The notes under the pieces are model-generated. The model worked only from the letters and a program-made list of their open reading frames with translations, was not told the origin of the DNA and searched no databases. This document shows, piece after piece, positions 38,934-44,902 of a stretch of DNA of 45,604 nucleotides (position 1 is the stretch's first letter; each line of letters begins with the position of its first letter). Both the position numbers and the translations under genes were made by a program. Source of the stretch: an uncultured Clostridia bacterium (GTDB taxonomy: Bacteria > Bacillota > Clostridia > Christensenellales > Borkfalkiaceae); NCBI GenBank assembly GCA_944376335.1, contig CALWCH010000014.1, positions 1 to 45,604 of the forward strand. Reading direction: 5' to 3'.

Positions 38934-40157
38934 TTATACGCCTGCGGATCTGCGGCGGTCATCGCGGCGATCGTCATCGTCGTCATCGTCATCGTCATCA
39001 TCACCCCAATCGTCGTCATCGTCGTCGTTGTAGCGGTCGTGGTCGGAATAGGAGCCGTCCTCAAAGACGTAGTGATACCCGCCCGCGCGGATATACACGG
39101 TGAAGCGCACTTTCTCGCCCGAGAGGGTCCCTTCTGCAAGCAGCACGGACTCGCCGTCCATTCGCGCGCTCTCAAAGGTGAGTTCATCCTTTTCGCCCTC
39201 CCGCTCGATGGAGAGTTTGAGCTCCAACTCATTGCCTTCCTGCTCGTACTCGACGACGGTGCGCTCCACGCGCCTGCCGTTTTCGTAGCGGGTATAGACG
39301 TATTCCTTCTCGGTCTCCGTCTCATGCCGTTCGCTCTCCGACTCCGATTCCTGCGTGATCTCAAGATAGGAGCGGGTACTCTCGTCGAGGTAGGCGCGGA
39401 AAAAAAGCTCGTTCTCCGATTCGCCGCCGTCCTGCTCCGTCTCGTAGTTGCCGACAACGGGATAGCGCTGCCCCTCGGCAAGGAGCTCGCCCTCGATGGC
39501 GTACTCTTCCTCCGTCTCGCCGCCGTCGTATTCGCCCTCCAAAAAGAGCTTGTTGAAGTAGAGGGTATAGGAGACGCTGTCGCCCAAAAGGTCGGTGTAG
39601 GCGATGCGCATGCCGTATTCGTAGCCGTCCGCTCCCGCGACGGCGGTCGCCTCGATGGCGTCCTCGCTCAGAAGCCCTTCGACGAGGGAGAGATAGCGGT
39701 TGACCGTCTCCACATGCTGCTCTTCGGCATCGCTCCTTGCGCTTGCGCTCTTCATGGAGAGGGCAGCCGAGGCGCTCTCTGCCGCAGCGACGGGGGAGGC
39801 GTTGCCCTCGGCGGCAAGCAGCGTTCCAAGAGATGCCGCCCCGTAGGCATAGAAGGAATCGGCATCCGTGATCTTTGCAAACTTGTTGCCGGGAAGGGGA
39901 GCGGGGCCGGGGATGGGGCTCCCGGGGAGCAGGATGGGCAGAAGAATGGCAAGGATGAGCACGATGGCCGCCGCGCCGATGGCGGGAATGAGTACTTTCT
40001 TCTTATTCTTCACGGTCTCGGTGCCGCCGTCCGCACGCGCCAAGACGGGGGCCTCCTCGGCGGTATAGCCGAGCTCCGCTTTGATGTTCTCCTTGATGCG
40101 CTCATCGGGGAGAACGCGCTTGGCATCTTCTTTGAGCAGTTTTTTGACGTCTTTCAT
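38934..40157 (-). CDS. Membrane anti-sigma factor with sensor domain and poly-Asp tail
   Basis: This 407-residue protein is encoded directly after an ECF sigma factor (ATGA overlap), the usual place for its anti-sigma factor. Residues 1-52 are cytoplasmic, hydrophilic and helical. 54-78 is a membrane segment followed by a Pro/Gly linker. 95-370 is an outward-facing domain rich in Glu, Tyr and Ser. Residues 378-396 are almost all Asp with one Trp-Gly interruption, then an Arg-rich end. No zinc H-x3-C-x2-C motif is present. The outer domain is related to most of the divergent lipoprotein: ETEEEYAI-EG, ENGR-VER and EEGNE-EL blocks occur in the same order. The ligand is unknown; the acidic tail suggests cation binding. 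Confidence 0.8.
   Translation of the reverse strand: MKDVKKLLKEDAKRVLPDERIKENIKAELGYTAEEAPVLARADGGTETVKNKKKVLIPAIGAAAIVLILAILLPILLPGSPIPGPAPLPGNKFAKITDADSFYAYGAASLGTLLAAEGNASPVAAAESASAALSMKSASARSDAEEQHVETVNRYLSLVEGLLSEDAIEATAVAGADGYEYGMRIAYTDLLGDSVSYTLYFNKLFLEGEYDGGETEEEYAIEGELLAEGQRYPVVGNYETEQDGGESENELFFRAYLDESTRSYLEITQESESESERHETETEKEYVYTRYENGRRVERTVVEYEQEGNELELKLSIEREGEKDELTFESARMDGESVLLAEGTLSGEKVRFTVYIRAGGYHYVFEDGSYSDHDRYNDDDDDDWGDDDDDDDDDDDRRDDRRRSAGV
38970..39026 (-). repeat. GAT/GAC codon tract encoding the poly-Asp tail
   Basis: Nineteen codons hold 17 Asp plus one Trp and one Gly, from mixed GAC and GAT triplets. Triplet slippage could change the length without a frameshift. Confidence 0.75.
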
Positions 40158-40678
40158 GCTTTGTCCTCCTCCAAGTGTTTTTTGAGCTTTTTAAACGCCT
40201 CGTTGTTGCGCCAGGTGACCGTGCCGATGGGGATATCCAGCATCTTAGAAACTTCCCGCCGCTTGTATCCCGCCACCTGACAGAGCATGAGGATTTCATA
40301 TTCCTCGGGCGTTAAGATGCGGGCGGCAAGGTCGAATACGTAAGGAATTTCTGCCTCGGCGGTGCCGTATTTATAGGCGTCCTCCTGAAAGTCGGTGGAA
40401 ACTTCCCGCTTATTTTTCTTCAAATGGTTCAGGGCGAGGGAGCGGGCGATCGTGCACAGCCAAGCCGTGAAGTTGCTCCCCGCGCGGTACTGCGCAAGCG
40501 ACCGCATGGCGCGAAGGTATGTCTCCTGCAAGACGTCCTCGGCGTGCATTTTATCGTGCACGATGTACAAAATGGTAAAGTAGGCGGCGCGGTTGGTGCG
40601 CTCGTAAATACGGTCGAACGCGCGCGTATCTCCGCCTCTCAGCGCCTCTACACTCTTTTCCAAGCTCTCATCTTTCAT
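40154..40678 (-). CDS. ECF-type RNA polymerase sigma factor
   Basis: This 174-residue sigma-70-family protein has only regions 2 and 4. Region 2 (about 19-90) includes DRIYERTNRAAYFTILYIVHDKMHAEDVLQETYLRA as its core. Region 4 (about 118-170) includes LTPEEYEILMLCQVAGYKRREVSKMLDIPIGTVTWR as its helix-turn-helix. No extra C-terminal domain is present. Immediately upstream is a motif shared with the divergent lipoprotein gene, so the sigma factor probably activates its own operon. Its TGA overlaps the anti-sigma ATG. Confidence 0.94.
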   Translation of the reverse strand: MKDESLEKSVEALRGGDTRAFDRIYERTNRAAYFTILYIVHDKMHAEDVLQETYLRAMRSLAQYRAGSNFTAWLCTIARSLALNHLKKNKREVSTDFQEDAYKYGTAEAEIPYVFDLAARILTPEEYEILMLCQVAGYKRREVSKMLDIPIGTVTWRNNEAFKKLKKHLEEDKA

Positions 40679-40695
40679 ACTCTTTCCATACTATA

Positions 40696-40721
40696 AACAA
40701 CCGAACGCGTCCGATTGTTGG
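40696..40721 (-). promoter_or_regulatory. Putative ECF-dependent promoter of the sigma/anti-sigma operon
   Basis: On the minus strand CCAACAATCGG is followed by TTGTT-TATAG. AACAA and TTGTT are 14 bases apart. The whole 40696-40719 block is also a near-perfect palindrome (20 of 24 positions). The ATG lies 17 bases after TTGTT. Confidence 0.6.
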
Positions 40722-40809
40722 GAAAATAAGAAATTTTCTACTATTTTATCAAAACCGATGGCAGTTCGTCAAGGGGAGAAAAAATTTTTTAGGAAATTTT
40801 GCTCTTTTT

Positions 40810-40836
40810 CCAACAAACGGCGTTTGCCCGCTTGTT
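40810..40836 (+). promoter_or_regulatory. Putative ECF-dependent promoter of the lipoprotein gene
   Basis: CCAACAAACGG (40810-40820) and TTGTT-ATATAG (40832-40842) match the upstream motif of the sigma operon, with 15 bases between AACAA and TTGTT instead of 14. Its -35 region does not look like a sigma-A promoter. Confidence 0.6.
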
Positions 40837-40903
40837 ATATAGGTGCAAAGGGAAAAAACTTCCGGAGATCCCCCCTCAAAAACATCTTAAGGAGAAAACA
40901 ACA

Positions 40904-41896
40904 ATGAAAAAGACGATCACCCTCATCCTGGCAGTATCCGCACTTACCCTTGCCCTCGGGGCGACCGCCTGCAATACGGGCAGCGTTTCCCTCGGCGGCA
41001 ATACCGAACACCCCGCAGAGAGCGAGAGCGTGTACGGCGTCTCCGCCGCGACCGCGGGCATGCTCATCCAGTCGATGGACGCAACCGTGACGCCCGAACT
41101 CCCCACGGTTCCCGAAACGCCTGCAACGCCCGAGACGCCCGCCGTTCCCGAGACCCCGACGACGCCCGAAACTCCGACGACCCCTACGACCCCGGAAATT
41201 CCGACAACGCCCGAGGCGGACGATTTCTCCGAACTCGACCACTACATGGGGCTTGTGGACGGCTTCCTGAACGGCAGCGGCTACAGCTTCCGCGTGGAGG
41301 CCTCCGATAGGGCAGAATACGAAGAGAAGATGACCGTCTCCTACAGCGGCCTGCAGGGCAAATCGCAGTATGAGATGCTCTACAACAAGACGCTCATCCC
41401 CGACGACGATTGGGACGATGACAGATGGGACGACGATTGGGATGAGACCGAAGAGGAATATGCGATCGACGGCATCCTCATCGTGGACGGCACCGAATAC
41501 CCCATGCGCGGCGTGCGCAGCATCGAAGAGGAGCGCGACGAATACGAGAGCGAGACGCAGTTCGTCGTCACCCTTGCAGAAGGGATGACGATGTGGGTGG
41601 AGCAGAGCGAGAGCTCGGAGGGAAGAGAGTACGAGCTCGAATACAGCTACTCCATCCGCGAGAACGGCCGCATCGTCGAGAGAAGTTCCTTCTCCTTCGA
41701 GGAAGAGGGGAACGAGACAGAGCTTGAGATGATCCGCGTGAGCGGTTCGGAGCGCGAAGTGTTCCGCTTCGAGGAGGAGAGCTACCGCGGGAAAGACTAC
41801 ATCCTCGTCCGCGTCGGCAGCGGCAGGGAAGGGCAAAGCTACCGCGTCGTAAGAGAGAGCGACGGCAGCTACACCTACGAGCCCTTCACGAGATAA
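40904..41896 (+). CDS. Lipoprotein paralogous to the anti-sigma sensor domain
   Basis: This 330-residue exported protein has a signal peptide ending in a slightly non-standard lipobox (GATAC, Cys 23). A Pro-Glu-Thr repeat linker (about 65-104, units of PETP and TTP) looks like a wall-spanning spacer. Residues 105-330 match the outer domain of the anti-sigma factor in the same order: YG-SAAT near 44, LVDGFL, ETEEEYAIDG at 181, RENGRIVER at 252 and EEEGNETEL at 266. The DDDW/DDDRW/DDDWD insert at 167-180 echoes the anti-sigma acidic tail. AAGGAG precedes the ATG at 40904. It probably sits on the cell surface; its function is unknown. Confidence 0.85.
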   Translation: MKKTITLILAVSALTLALGATACNTGSVSLGGNTEHPAESESVYGVSAATAGMLIQSMDATVTPELPTVPETPATPETPAVPETPTTPETPTTPTTPEIPTTPEADDFSELDHYMGLVDGFLNGSGYSFRVEASDRAEYEEKMTVSYSGLQGKSQYEMLYNKTLIPDDDWDDDRWDDDWDETEEEYAIDGILIVDGTEYPMRGVRSIEEERDEYESETQFVVTLAEGMTMWVEQSESSEGREYELEYSYSIRENGRIVERSSFSFEEEGNETELEMIRVSGSEREVFRFEEESYRGKDYILVRVGSGREGQSYRVVRESDGSYTYEPFTR

Positions 41897-41912: not shown

Positions 41913-41942
41913 AAAGAGCGGCCAAAAAACGGCCGCTCTTTT
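41913..41942 (+). terminator. Intrinsic terminator after the lipoprotein gene
   Basis: AAAGAGCGGCC / GGCCGCTCTTT arms (41913-41923, 41931-41941) followed by T residues. Confidence 0.92.
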
Positions 41943-42471: not shown

Positions 42472-43776
42472 ATGGACGAACAGCAAAGAGAACTTGAACT
42501 CAAGCGCCTGGATGAAGAGATACGGGGCGCCGCCGCCCGATTGGGAGAGCCGTTGAAGGGGCGCTTCGACCCGTTTTCCGCGCCCGCCATCCTCTTCACG
42601 GAGGCTCTCTTTTACGAAGCTTCCCTGCTCGGCGCAAGCGATATCCACTTTTCCCCCGAAGCGGAAGAGGTGCGCGTTGAATATCGCATCGACGGAGACT
42701 TTCTTCCCCGCCTCACCTATCCCGCGGCGGGGCACAGACGCATCGCAACGAGACTCAAGGCGCTCTCGGGCATGAATATTGCCGAGTATCGCCTGCCGCA
42801 GAACGGGCGCATTTCGCGCGATCTCTACGGAGAGGACTATGATCTGCGCGTCTCCATGCTCCCCGCGGCGCATGGGGAGAACATCGTCATCCGCCTGCTG
42901 CCCCGCCGCCTGCCGTTTACGCGGGAAGAGCTCGGTTTTACAGAAGAGGAGCAGGCAGCCGTCCTGCGCATGCTCGCCCGCCCCGGGCTCGTGCTGCTGA
43001 CGGGTCCGACGGGATGCGGAAAATCGACAACGCTCGCCTGCCTTTTGCTTGAGCTTGCCTCGGAGCATAAGAATATCATCACCGTGGAGGACCCCGCCGA
43101 GTACCTCATCGAGGGCGTGCAGCACGTCTCTCTTCCCGCAAACGGCCGCCTCACCTTTTCGGCGGCTCTCAAGGATGTGCTGCGGCAGGACCCGGACGTC
43201 GTCATGATCGGAGAGATCCGAGACGGCGACACGGCACGGGAGGCGGTGCGCATGGCGATCGCGGGCAGGCTCGTCCTCTCCACGCTGCATACGAAAGATG
43301 CGGTGAGCGCCGTCGTTCGCCTCAGAGACCTGGGCATTGAGAACAGCTTTCTTGCCGAAAGCCTCTCAGGCGTCATCTCTGAGCGGCTCGTAAAGCGCAT
43401 CTGCCCGCACTGCCGCGCGGCATATCCCGCCGATGCGCCCGCCCTTCCGGATGGGAAGGAGCTCTTTTACGGTAAGGGCTGCGAAGAATGCGGCGGAAGG
43501 GGCACAAAGGGCAGGATGGCCGTCTTTGAAGTGCTGGAGATCAGCACCCGGCTCCGCAATGCCCTCCGCGAAGGAGCCGAGACGGATGCGCTCTTCGCCC
43601 TCTCCCGAGAAGAGGGAATGAACACGATGGGGGAGAACGCTTTGAAGCTTTTGGAAAGCGGGGAGATCGACGCCATAGCATACCGCCAAATTCTCGGCCT
43701 TCCCGCAGCCGAGCAGAAAAGCCCTTCCGCACGGAAAGGCCCTTTACCCGCTGAGTTCCTCGCGGAAGTGAGATAA
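42472..43776 (+). CDS. Orphan GspE/PilB-type secretion ATPase
   Basis: This 434-residue ATPase of the type II secretion and type IV pilus family has an N2 domain (about 35-145), Walker A GPTGCGKSTT at 178-187, the Asp box DIHFSPEAEEVRVEYRIDGD-like segment near 57, and Walker B DPDVVMIGEIRDGDTA near 240-254. It also has HTKDA and a C-terminal four-cysteine zinc motif (CPHC ... CEEC). The usual N-terminal MshEN domain is missing, so the protein is short. No pilin, PilT, PilC or peptidase gene is nearby. I chose the ATG at 42472 with AGGGG upstream. It may power a competence pseudopilus encoded elsewhere. Confidence 0.88.
   Translation: MDEQQRELELKRLDEEIRGAAARLGEPLKGRFDPFSAPAILFTEALFYEASLLGASDIHFSPEAEEVRVEYRIDGDFLPRLTYPAAGHRRIATRLKALSGMNIAEYRLPQNGRISRDLYGEDYDLRVSMLPAAHGENIVIRLLPRRLPFTREELGFTEEEQAAVLRMLARPGLVLLTGPTGCGKSTTLACLLLELASEHKNIITVEDPAEYLIEGVQHVSLPANGRLTFSAALKDVLRQDPDVVMIGEIRDGDTAREAVRMAIAGRLVLSTLHTKDAVSAVVRLRDLGIENSFLAESLSGVISERLVKRICPHCRAAYPADAPALPDGKELFYGKGCEECGGRGTKGRMAVFEVLEISTRLRNALREGAETDALFALSREEGMNTMGENALKLLESGEIDAIAYRQILGLPAAEQKSPSARKGPLPAEFLAEVR
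43717..43740 (-). terminator. Terminator of the spoIIA operon
   Basis: On the minus strand GCCTTTCCG / CGGAAGGGC with one mismatch is followed by TTTT. It lies within the last codons of the converging GspE gene. Confidence 0.6.
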
Positions 43777-44469
43777 GATCTTGCTCTCGATGCGGGAGAC
43801 CTGCACCTGCGATACGCCGACCACCTGCGCAACTTCGCTCTGCGTCATGTCGCGGAAGTAGCGCAAAACGACGATCTTTTTCTCCCGTTCGGGAAGCCTC
43901 TCGATGGCCTGCTTTAAAAGCACCTTATCGAGAAGTTCCTCGGGCGTCTCGGGCGAGGCAAGGCGGTCTGCGATCGGGCTCAAGTTTCCGTCCTTATGCG
44001 GCGCTTCCTCGTAGATGGAGACGGGCATGCGCGACGAGCCGAGCGCGAACACCACTTCGCTCTCGTCGATGGCAAACGCAGAAGCGACTTCCTTTACGGT
44101 GGGCTCCTTGCCGTGCTCCTGCGTATAGCGTTCGATGTAAGCGCTTATCTCCCGTGCCGTCCTCTTGAGCGCCCGCGAGACCTTCACGCTGCCGTCGTCG
44201 CGCAAGAATCGCTTGATCTCTCCCGCGATCATGGGCACGGCATACGTCGAAAAGCGCACGCCGAAGCGCTCGTCAAAGCCATGAATGGCCTTCAAAAGCC
44301 CCATGGAGGCGAGTTCAAACAAGTCGTCGTACTCCACGCCCTTATTGAGATAACGGCGAAGGATGCTCTTTAAAAGGGGGGTGTTGTGGGTGAGAAGGGT
44401 CTCCTTTGCGGCAGCATCTCCTTCCTTTGCGGCGCGGATGAGGCGCAGCGTCTCTTTCTCATCGAGCAT
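43744..44469 (-). CDS. sigF: Sporulation sigma factor F
   Basis: This 241-residue sigma factor with regions 2, 3 and 4 is the first forespore-specific sigma factor. Region 2 includes LLKSILRRYLNKGVEYDDLFELASMGLLKA in its core and RFSTYAVPMIAGEIKRFLRD. Region 4 ends with MTQSEVAQVVGVSQVQVSRIESKIL. SigF and SigG are alike, but the position directly after spoIIAB fixes it as SigF. Its start overlaps the spoIIAB end by 11 bases. Confidence 0.95.
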   Translation of the reverse strand: MLDEKETLRLIRAAKEGDAAAKETLLTHNTPLLKSILRRYLNKGVEYDDLFELASMGLLKAIHGFDERFGVRFSTYAVPMIAGEIKRFLRDDGSVKVSRALKRTAREISAYIERYTQEHGKEPTVKEVASAFAIDESEVVFALGSSRMPVSIYEEAPHKDGNLSPIADRLASPETPEELLDKVLLKQAIERLPEREKKIVVLRYFRDMTQSEVAQVVGVSQVQVSRIESKILSHFREELSG

Positions 44470-44902
44470 TGGCTTCCGCCGTCCCGCCGAAGCATTTTGT
44501 CATCTCCACCCGCGTGCCTTTTTTCGGCGCCGAGGTGACGTGAAATTCGTTCATGAAGGTCTGCATGATGGTAAAGCCCATGCCCGAGCGTTCCTCCCCC
44601 GGACAGGACGTATAGAAGGGCGTGAGGGCGCGCGGTACGTCCTCGATGCCTTTCCCGCTGTCCGTTACAATGATATGTAGGCGGTTCTCCTCAGTCTCAC
44701 ATTCCACGCTCACCCAATACTCGCCCCCCTTTTCGGGATAGGCGTGCACGATGCAGTTGGTGACGGCTTCCGAGACGGCGGTCTTGACGTCGGAAAGTTC
44801 GGAGAGGGTGGGGTTTAAGGGCAGGGCAAACGCCGCGACGACGTTGCGGGCAAACACTTCGTTTTCGGAGAGCGCCAAAAAGCATAGTTTCATTCTGTTC
44901 AT
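44459..44902 (-). CDS. spoIIAB: Anti-sigma F factor, serine kinase
   Basis: This 147-residue GHKL-fold kinase holds SigF inactive and phosphorylates SpoIIAA. The ATP-site boxes are visible: AVSEAVTNCIVHAYP (N box), DSGKGI (G1) and RSGMGFTIM (G2). The length is normal. The ATG lies 8 bases after the spoIIAA stop, preceded by AGGTGGA. Confidence 0.95.
   Translation of the reverse strand: MNRMKLCFLALSENEVFARNVVAAFALPLNPTLSELSDVKTAVSEAVTNCIVHAYPEKGGEYWVSVECETEENRLHIIVTDSGKGIEDVPRALTPFYTSCPGEERSGMGFTIMQTFMNEFHVTSAPKKGTRVEMTKCFGGTAEANAR

Follow-up and report, generated by a model that had tools for sequence, protein, structure and literature searches.

An ECF sigma factor locus of gut Clostridia in which the anti-sigma sensor and the adjoining lipoprotein share an acidic domain

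The window, a stretch of 45,604 nucleotides from an uncultured Clostridia bacterium (contig CALWCH010000014.1), contains a sigma factor gene, an anti-sigma factor gene and a divergent lipoprotein gene. The first (40154..40678, minus strand) encodes a 174 aa protein with Sigma70_r2 and Sigma70_r4 domains, matched above cut-off in Pfam (PF04542, 3e-15; PF04545, 2.3e-6) and by the NCBIfam sigma70-ECF model TIGR02937. It has only regions 2 and 4, in the size range of about 170–200 aa expected of an ECF (group 4) factor. The downstream gene (38934..40157, minus strand, 407 aa) overlaps it and, as expected of a co-encoded membrane anti-sigma factor, specifies a cytosolic end (residues ~1–54), a membrane helix (residues 57–76; 39930..39989, minus strand) recognised from the model secondary structure and a hydrophobic stretch, an outer domain of the family described below and a poly-Asp tail. 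The AlphaFold model places a beta region at residues 168–373 (39039..39656, minus strand), with blocks of pLDDT 85–97 up to residue 370. Anti-sigma factors of the ZAS/zf-HC2 type carry a His/Cys zinc motif in the cytosolic end; this motif is absent here, residues 1–54 containing no Cys or His, and a Pfam search of the protein gave no match to RsgI_M (PF23750) up to E 1.

The lipoprotein gene (40904..41896, plus strand) encodes 330 aa. Bacterial lipoproteins carry a signal peptide and a lipobox terminating in Cys, and this protein has both (MKKTITLILAVSALTLALGATAC, Cys23), followed by a Pro/Glu/Thr linker and the shared domain, whose beta region spans residues 127–328 in the AlphaFold model (41282..41887, plus strand). 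We place the start at the ATG at 40904, from which the signal peptide runs to Cys23; the start in the open reading frame list (40799) is too early. An intrinsic terminator-like hairpin lies 3′ of the gene (41913..41941, plus strand), one of four such sites in the region, where shuffled sequence has 3.7 on average. Flanking genes, named by eye, are for sugar catabolism upstream and an MntR-like regulator downstream. A functional link to them was rejected, as the flank is kept in only three window-type loci (L064–L066) of 51 scanned; L085 has one distant alcohol-dehydrogenase match to the flank (1e-58).

Judged from their sequences, the anti-sigma outer domain and the lipoprotein domain are members of a single family that is very acidic, rich in beta structure and without annotation. 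When anti-sigma residues 96–373 were locally aligned with lipoprotein residues 39–330, the score was 243, against 51 ± 8.8 (maximum 92) for 1000 shuffles with composition kept (z 21.8), and BLASTP aligned the two at 33% over 163 columns (E 1e-8). When the whole genome (assembly 86% complete) was searched using HMMER, the lipoprotein query retrieved the anti-sigma gene (E 2.3e-16) and, up to E 1, just two further matches, at 0.07 and 0.3. The initial annotation had proposed this kinship from the ordered blocks L-LV-G-L, ETEEEYAI, ENGR-VER and EGNE-EL, which do occur in order in both proteins, the start motif loosely; the contrasting anchors it described, a membrane helix in one and a lipobox with linker in the other, are likewise present. 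Both proteins have a pI of ~4.1, which might suggest a chance or compositional resemblance between two acidic proteins, but the shuffle and profile scores refute this, as does the fact that one profile and one tree hold both copies, and we give that explanation virtually no weight.

In profile searches the two outer domains match each other, and neither has a Pfam or NCBIfam match above cut-off; an NCBIfam lipoprotein match (IgA-binding BAC) falls in the Pro/Glu/Thr linker, far below cut-off, and was set aside. The order of the helix and 14–15 beta strands is equal in the two AlphaFold models, compared by element order without superposition, consistent with the common fold that had been anticipated. 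Searching the PDB by structure gave no match at E ≤ 0.001 for either model, and a profile search of PDB sequences reached a best E of 0.076; Foldseek matches (porins, amine oxidases, VtrA/VtrC) were non-significant and were not used. Eleven glutamates are at least 90% conserved in an alignment of 74 rows. At this level 22 positions, including 11 Glu, are conserved in both copies, and a further 25 positions, lipobox included, are conserved in one copy and different in the other. A comparison of two alignments (A3 and A4) was not used because rows common to both make it non-independent. The analysis thus points to an acidic surface family of gut Clostridia, rich in beta structure and lacking annotation, which was encountered in a single order only and has no significant relative among solved structures.

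Our survey covered 106 loci of the order. In 28 (class P) a sigma factor accompanies a domain-bearing anti-sigma factor and a domain-bearing lipoprotein; in 51 (class R) sigma factor and lipoprotein are present and the anti-sigma outer domain is instead of the RsgI_M type; in 24 the lipoprotein is alone, with no sigma factor seen nearby, some of these lying at contig ends. In every class P locus the two copies are divided between a lipoprotein with a lipobox and the membrane protein encoded after the sigma factor (28/28, L152 assigned by eye), and the 27 lipoproteins other than that of the window also have a lipobox-like Cys. RsgI_M scored above the curated cut-off in all five class R proteins tested by Pfam, the remaining 46 being assigned with a profile built in this analysis; Asn-Pro stands near the start of the matched stretch in 45 of the 51, some of the six misses being mis-trimmed matches. 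A recurring sigma/anti-sigma/lipoprotein unit, as first proposed, is therefore borne out by the P loci, and the idea of a three-part loop with a sensor copy may apply to those 28 and does not extend to the 51 with RsgI_M-type anti-sigmas or the 24 lone genes. rpoC is a recurring neighbour of P and R loci in the genus, and one cluster recurs in 12 loci (8 R, 4 P; representative L172).

Within the genus, the domain is present in 36/36 genomes with the sigma factor and 11/25 without (Fisher 2e-7). The initial annotation had held that a lipoprotein regularly found without the sigma pair would speak against its loop. This is partly the case, since 11 of 47 domain-bearing genus genomes, several of them incomplete, lack a match to the window-type sigma factor; however, an ECF promoter is lacking ahead of 21 of the 24 lone genes (the upstream sequence of L198 is too short to judge), which fits coupling to the sigma factor.

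Of 29 sensor-bearing anti-sigmas, 28 match a profile of the class R proteins at their inner end (E ≤ 0.01), as does only 1 of 580 shuffled sequences. The P and R anti-sigmas share this inner end, and the sensor has therefore been exchanged. A single origin of the sensor copies was rejected (AU p 0.0005) in a test run after the first tree had been seen. It retained 24 of the 75 loci that are of class R or have a lone lipoprotein, and left out from the start the four rows of L085 and L203, which were long branches; gene conversion between copies after one capture could also produce this rejection. The arrangement thus seems to have been built more than once in related bacteria and, the trees being unrooted, only nesting gives the direction from lipoprotein to sensor. 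We tentatively suggest, at less than even confidence, a repeated output-to-sensor capture, in which, on more than one occasion, anti-sigmas of the order lost an RsgI-type outer domain and gained in its place a copy of the lipoprotein made by their own sigma factor. This would give a minimal self-matched switch of one sigma factor, one inhibitor, one output and two promoters, with output and sensor competing either for a common ligand or for binding to one another. Such a capture, if real, would offer a clean example from nature of a receptor derived from its own effector. Close relatives combine one and the same pair of sigma and lipoprotein families with either of two sensors, making the effect of the exchange directly testable.

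Matching ECF-type promoters precede both transcription units of the window: one, found by pattern, for the sigma/anti-sigma operon (40693..40721, minus strand; CCAACAA ... TTGTTTAT) and one, found by pattern and position weight matrix (PWM), for the lipoprotein gene (40810..40839, plus strand; CCAACAA ... TTGTTATA). A SigmaA-type promoter-like site, TTGACG-18-TAAAAT, also lies upstream of the sigma gene (40743..40772, minus strand), and similar sites were seen by eye in L064–L066. Upstream of the lipoprotein gene an ECF-type promoter is present in 28/28 P, 42/51 R and 3/24 lone loci, and the promoter variant is identical at the sigma and lipoprotein genes in all 30 loci having both; in the shuffle control the pattern matched 10 of 3680 stretches. 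These patterns were derived from the loci they score, the hold-out excepted, and weaker target promoters escape them. With a PWM trained on 34 sites (L064–L114) and a 99% shuffle threshold, 21 of 23 P lipoprotein genes in the hold-out (L151–L204) pass; the corresponding figures are 11 of 23 for P sigma genes and 3 of 19 for R lipoprotein genes. Autoregulation of the sigma factor is suggested by the motif common to both genes, yet the window's sigma promoter scores 1.3, below the threshold of 3.6. Across 25 module-bearing genomes a strict pattern gave 32 matches, of which 26 fall at the module; the reversed control gave 3. The window genome (G000) has exactly two, the sigma and lipoprotein promoters, and the same picture is seen in G034, G001, G055, G184, G308, G266, G312 and G333; off-module matches number one in G017 and five in G314, and six of the 25 genomes have none at all. 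An earlier pattern, CCAACAN{16,19}GTTNTA, was replaced as it cannot match the sigma promoter and has three off-module matches in G001. The lipoprotein gene is thus very probably a target of the adjoining sigma factor, and the switch appears largely dedicated to one surface protein, with a set of matching promoters small enough for full modelling.

The reading we prefer, while rating it somewhat below an even chance, is an autoregulated, self-contained ECF switch that serves one surface lipoprotein and whose sensor derives from its own output. The sigma factor would transcribe its own operon and, from the matching divergent promoter, the lipoprotein gene, and would be held by the membrane anti-sigma, probably through its inner end. 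The outer sensor would be a captured copy of the lipoprotein domain, so that sensor and output may recognise the same outside ligand, perhaps a cationic one given the strongly acidic domain with its near-invariant glutamates. Ligand on the sensor copy would presumably lead to proteolytic degradation of the anti-sigma and free the sigma factor; accumulating lipoprotein would then sequester the ligand and so turn off the switch, a negative feedback by titration. Sequence comparison supports the common domain, the sensor exchange, the promoter pairing and the very small matching-promoter set; the shared-ligand feedback is inferred. Such feedback would be unnecessary for the module as such, since R loci make the same kind of lipoprotein without a paralogous sensor, and the 25 positions that differ between copies imply that the two domains may not bind the same thing.

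Those differing positions, together with the unrelated sensor of the R loci, also favour plain domain reuse, in which sigma drives the lipoprotein as a protective output and the copy in the anti-sigma, captured as a convenient neighbour, senses something else. We consider this unlikely, as the 22 positions conserved in both copies suggest a common property and origin on more than one occasion speaks for the particular domain being important. Conservation of those 22 positions would equally suit a switch in which the lipoprotein itself binds the sensor copy, like with like, and stabilises the anti-sigma, so that its level, placement or damage is read. The adjoining paralogous domains in 28 of 106 loci and the presence of the domain in every sigma-bearing genome of the genus agree with this, but the anti-sigmas of 51 loci lack the domain and still stand beside the same kind of lipoprotein, and 24 lipoproteins, some at contig ends, are alone; on balance we think it rather unlikely.

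The initial annotation knew of no described system with this arrangement. This stands for the domain and module, which were not found among the literature matches listed; it does not stand for the logic, which has at least one precedent. The sensor domain of BlaR1 is related to the secreted beta-lactamase that BlaR1 induces, which probably makes it a further one, although it involves no sigma system and a beta-lactamase fold. In the Streptomyces sigE operon the lipoprotein CseA is encoded with an ECF sigma factor, as in the window, but control is by a two-component system rather than an anti-sigma, and we know of no paralogous sensor for CseA. SigV–RsiV of Bacillus subtilis, the lysozyme receptor system, also pairs an ECF sigma factor with a membrane anti-sigma whose outer domain is reported to bind the ligand directly, with degradation by regulated intramembrane proteolysis following, but that outer domain is not the one found here. 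RsgI-type anti-sigmas are linked to the window through its class R relatives, which have RsgI_M, a homologous inner end and the same sigma and lipoprotein families, the window protein differing in its acidic domain in place of RsgI_M. The closest precedent found is SigI6–RsgI6 of Clostridium thermocellum, in which the outer GH10 module of RsgI6 is 57% identical to Xyn10D, and the autoregulated SigI6 activates the xyn10D promoter among others (PMC4711584). As in the window, the outer sensor of the anti-sigma is closely related to a product of its own sigma factor (PMC4711584). The systems differ in that SigI6 is a SigI rather than an ECF factor, that a known enzyme family was added after the RsgI periplasmic domain whereas the window sensor replaces RsgI_M, and that SigI6 has several targets, against the single one found here, an adjoining lipoprotein of unknown fold.

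The window holds a gene for a plain ECF sigma factor by Pfam and NCBIfam (40154-40678, minus strand) and, recognised from sequence, an overlapping gene for a membrane anti-sigma factor (38934-40157, minus strand) and a divergent lipoprotein gene (40904-41896, plus strand). The initial annotation had placed one domain in both the outer part of the anti-sigma factor and the lipoprotein, and this was upheld: the two matched with E-values of 1e-8 (BLASTP) and 2.3e-16 (HMMER, window's genome), and their alignment scored 243 against 51 ± 8.8 for 1000 shuffles. Judged by sequence, they are homologous. Neither had a family above cut-off in Pfam or NCBIfam, and HMMER found no third copy better than E 0.07 in the window's genome, which is 86% complete. 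Elsewhere in the window, a pair of genes next to each other (43744-44902, minus strand) resembles, by eye, sporulation sigma-F and its anti-sigma SpoIIAB.

AlphaFold models, made from alignments of 80 and 74 rows that combined the window's sequences with those of related loci, predicted one order of elements for both proteins: a helix close to the anchor is followed by a flexible stretch, another helix and then beta strands, 14 in the lipoprotein and 15 in the anti-sigma factor, with pLDDT mostly above 90 in the beta blocks. Foldseek gave no PDB match at E ≤ 0.001 for either model, and a profile search of PDB sequences with the domain gave no significant match (best E 0.076). The domain is strongly acidic, with a net charge of −48 for the mature lipoprotein and −54 for the anti-sigma outer part, and a beta-part pI measured in 135 of 136 family members at a median of 4.18 (maximum 4.68). 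In the 74-row alignment, 11 glutamates reach 90% conservation or more. Within the window-type group (18 of its 20 loci used), 22 positions, 11 of them glutamate, are at least 90% conserved in sensor and lipoprotein alike, and 25 are conserved in one copy and different in the other. Very acidic C-terminal stretches, often poly-Asp, occur in the window's anti-sigma factor (38934-39038) and in related ones: 12/29 domain-bearing and 25/51 RsgI_M-type anti-sigma factors, and only 3/105 lipoproteins of the P, R and lone loci described below.

Searches of 101 genomes with each window protein (E ≤ 0.001) matched the lipoprotein in 55, some through the low-complexity linker only, and the anti-sigma factor in 50. 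Of 297 genomes examined in the order, 62 were matched by a 40-row profile; a sample of 391 genomes spanning the class gave four matches to another profile, each from this same order. Profiles built in this analysis sorted 105 stretches and the window into 28 class P loci (sigma factor, anti-sigma factor and lipoprotein, the last two both with the acidic domain), 51 class R loci (the anti-sigma factor has an RsgI_M-type outer domain instead; RsgI_M was above the Pfam cut-off in 5/5 relatives tested) and 24 lone lipoprotein loci, an upper bound as some stop at contig edges (e.g. L097, L198). Of the other three, L105 shows a sigma factor and a lipoprotein where a contig ends, L154 lacks a lipoprotein and L200 lacks a sigma factor. 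By manual tally, the 62 genomes of the order divide into 25 with P loci, 22 with R loci and 13 with lone loci, leaving 2 other. P loci differ in arrangement: the lipoprotein gene may be divergent, stand first or come last, and L163 was scored convergent because its frame ran from stop to stop.

Several loci depart from these layouts. Two adjacent family lipoproteins lie beside a sigma factor and RsgI_M-type anti-sigma factor in L185 (5100-7330) and L197 (5169-7657), and in L269 (4794-7577) the domain sits inside a 928-codon frame immediately after the sigma factor. L153 and L156 have lipoprotein genes with an ECF promoter and no sigma factor nearby, and L154 a sensor-bearing anti-sigma factor with no lipoprotein nearby; these are either split loci or contig breaks. 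Sigma and RsgI_M-type anti-sigma factor form a single open frame of 429-558 codons in L067 (6159-7754), L080 (2849-4396), L109 (3238-4884) and others, amounting to 9/51 class R loci and 14/66 of another set, largely of the same genus. Such fusions appear to be membrane-tethered ECF sigma factors joined to their own inhibitor.

The survey of co-occurrence suggested by the initial annotation bore out the association in one direction. Among 61 genus genomes (sigma limit 1e-15, linker-only domain matches left out, manual count), 36 had a sigma match, with a best E of 1.7e-29 or lower in each, and all 36 had the domain; no sigma factor without the domain was found. The converse did not hold, as 11 of the 25 genomes without a sigma match carried the domain and 14 lacked it (Fisher 2e-7 for the whole comparison).

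The lipoprotein genes are preceded by the motif TCCAACAAA, and 17-18 nt of spacer separate CCAACA from a following GTT.TA. From 34 sites in L064-L114 we trained a PWM whose threshold was set at 99% of shuffles. In the held-out loci L151-L204 this threshold was exceeded by 21/23 P lipoprotein genes but by only 11/23 P sigma genes and 3/19 R lipoprotein genes; lone lipoprotein genes exceeded it in 1/14 and 2/9 cases, and the window's sigma promoter fell below it (1.3 vs 3.6). We then scored three variants, D1 (CCAACA), D2 (TTGG[CT]AAAA) and D3 (CCAATAAAA), all of them paired with a TTGT/GTT element at a fixed distance and written from the same data they score. They occurred at 28/28 P, 42/51 R and 3/24 lone lipoprotein genes, and in 10/3680 shuffled stretches. 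Among sigma genes they were found in 21/28 P loci, four of the seven misses being lipoprotein-first, and in 10/51 R loci; R loci of L064-L114 are lipoprotein-first in 31/32, bar a few, and there a single promoter could serve all genes. Upstream of the window's sigma gene there is also a sigmaA-type promoter-like site that could keep up a basal level. Lone lipoprotein genes of L092-L094, L096, L098-L101, L110 and L113 lack an ECF promoter; by eye, a TATAAT-like element is visible at several of them.

The variant was identical at the sigma and lipoprotein genes in all 30 loci having both (18 D1, 11 D2, 1 D3), a co-change that one sigma factor acting on both promoters would produce. Genome-wide, the strict D1 pattern gave 32 matches in 25 genomes (reversed control, 3) and none in six of them; 26 lay at the module formed by the three genes, and the others were one in G017 and five in G314. 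In the window's genome the two matches fall on the promoters of the sigma gene and the lipoprotein gene, and these alone were matched also in G034, G001, G055, G184, G308, G266, G312 and G333.

A profile of the R cytosolic end matched 28/29 sensor-bearing ends at E ≤ 0.01 (shuffles, 1/580), so the inner end is homologous in P and R anti-sigma factors, with a different outer part. A tree of 81 sigma rows, made by a quick method, puts the window with full support among 20 P loci, and the P-type sigma factors of L152, L154, L155 and L157 in a supported group with 31 R sigma factors; the label P requires six changes, and starred branches force at least two. In a FastTree phylogeny of the domain, with 131 rows each 180 residues or longer, window-type sensors and window-type lipoproteins are sister groups, except for the lipoproteins of L169 and L170 among the sensors, and the L152 group of sensors is nested among lipoproteins. 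Forcing all sensor copies into one group cost 268 log-likelihood units (AU p 0.0005; 27 sensors, 50 lipoproteins).

The clearest case of exchange is L152, from genome G239. The inner end and membrane helix of its anti-sigma factor match R anti-sigma factors of the same genus (L068, 36% over 85 columns); beyond the helix it is 51% identical to its own lipoprotein over 320 columns, and its sensor is only 30% identical to that of the window. A gene that we take to be rpoC, from its sequence and characteristic motifs, adjoins this locus and 22 R loci of L064-L114, which suggests that the sensor was exchanged in place. The anti-sigma factors of L154, L155 and L157 match that of L152 at 38-42% over their length, and the four may thus share a single capture. 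For the sensor copies as a whole, one capture followed by gene conversion is also possible.

A common domain, an exchangeable sensor, promoter pairing and few other matching promoters are supported at the sequence level. We propose that a ligand would trigger loss of the anti-sigma factor and that the lipoprotein would feed back by competing for that ligand, in our view the best reading; a rival is that it would do so by binding the sensor. The acid-rich conserved positions suggest, as a guess, something cationic as the ligand.

Our literature searches returned no description of a sigma factor, sensor-bearing anti-sigma factor and paralogous lipoprotein in this arrangement among the matches listed. 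Related systems have been described: RsiV is a direct ligand receptor, RsgI passes on its signal by way of autocleavage, RseP and a cytoplasmic AAA+/ClpP protease (PMC12203970), and zinc-finger and further domains have been reported as additions to ECF factors (ECF52; PMC5826349). The outer GH10 module of Clostridium thermocellum RsgI6 is reported to be 57% identical to Xyn10D, and xyn10D to be one of several promoters activated by SigI6 (PMC4711584). RsgI6, as presented there, likewise carries an outer module akin to the product of its own sigma factor's target.
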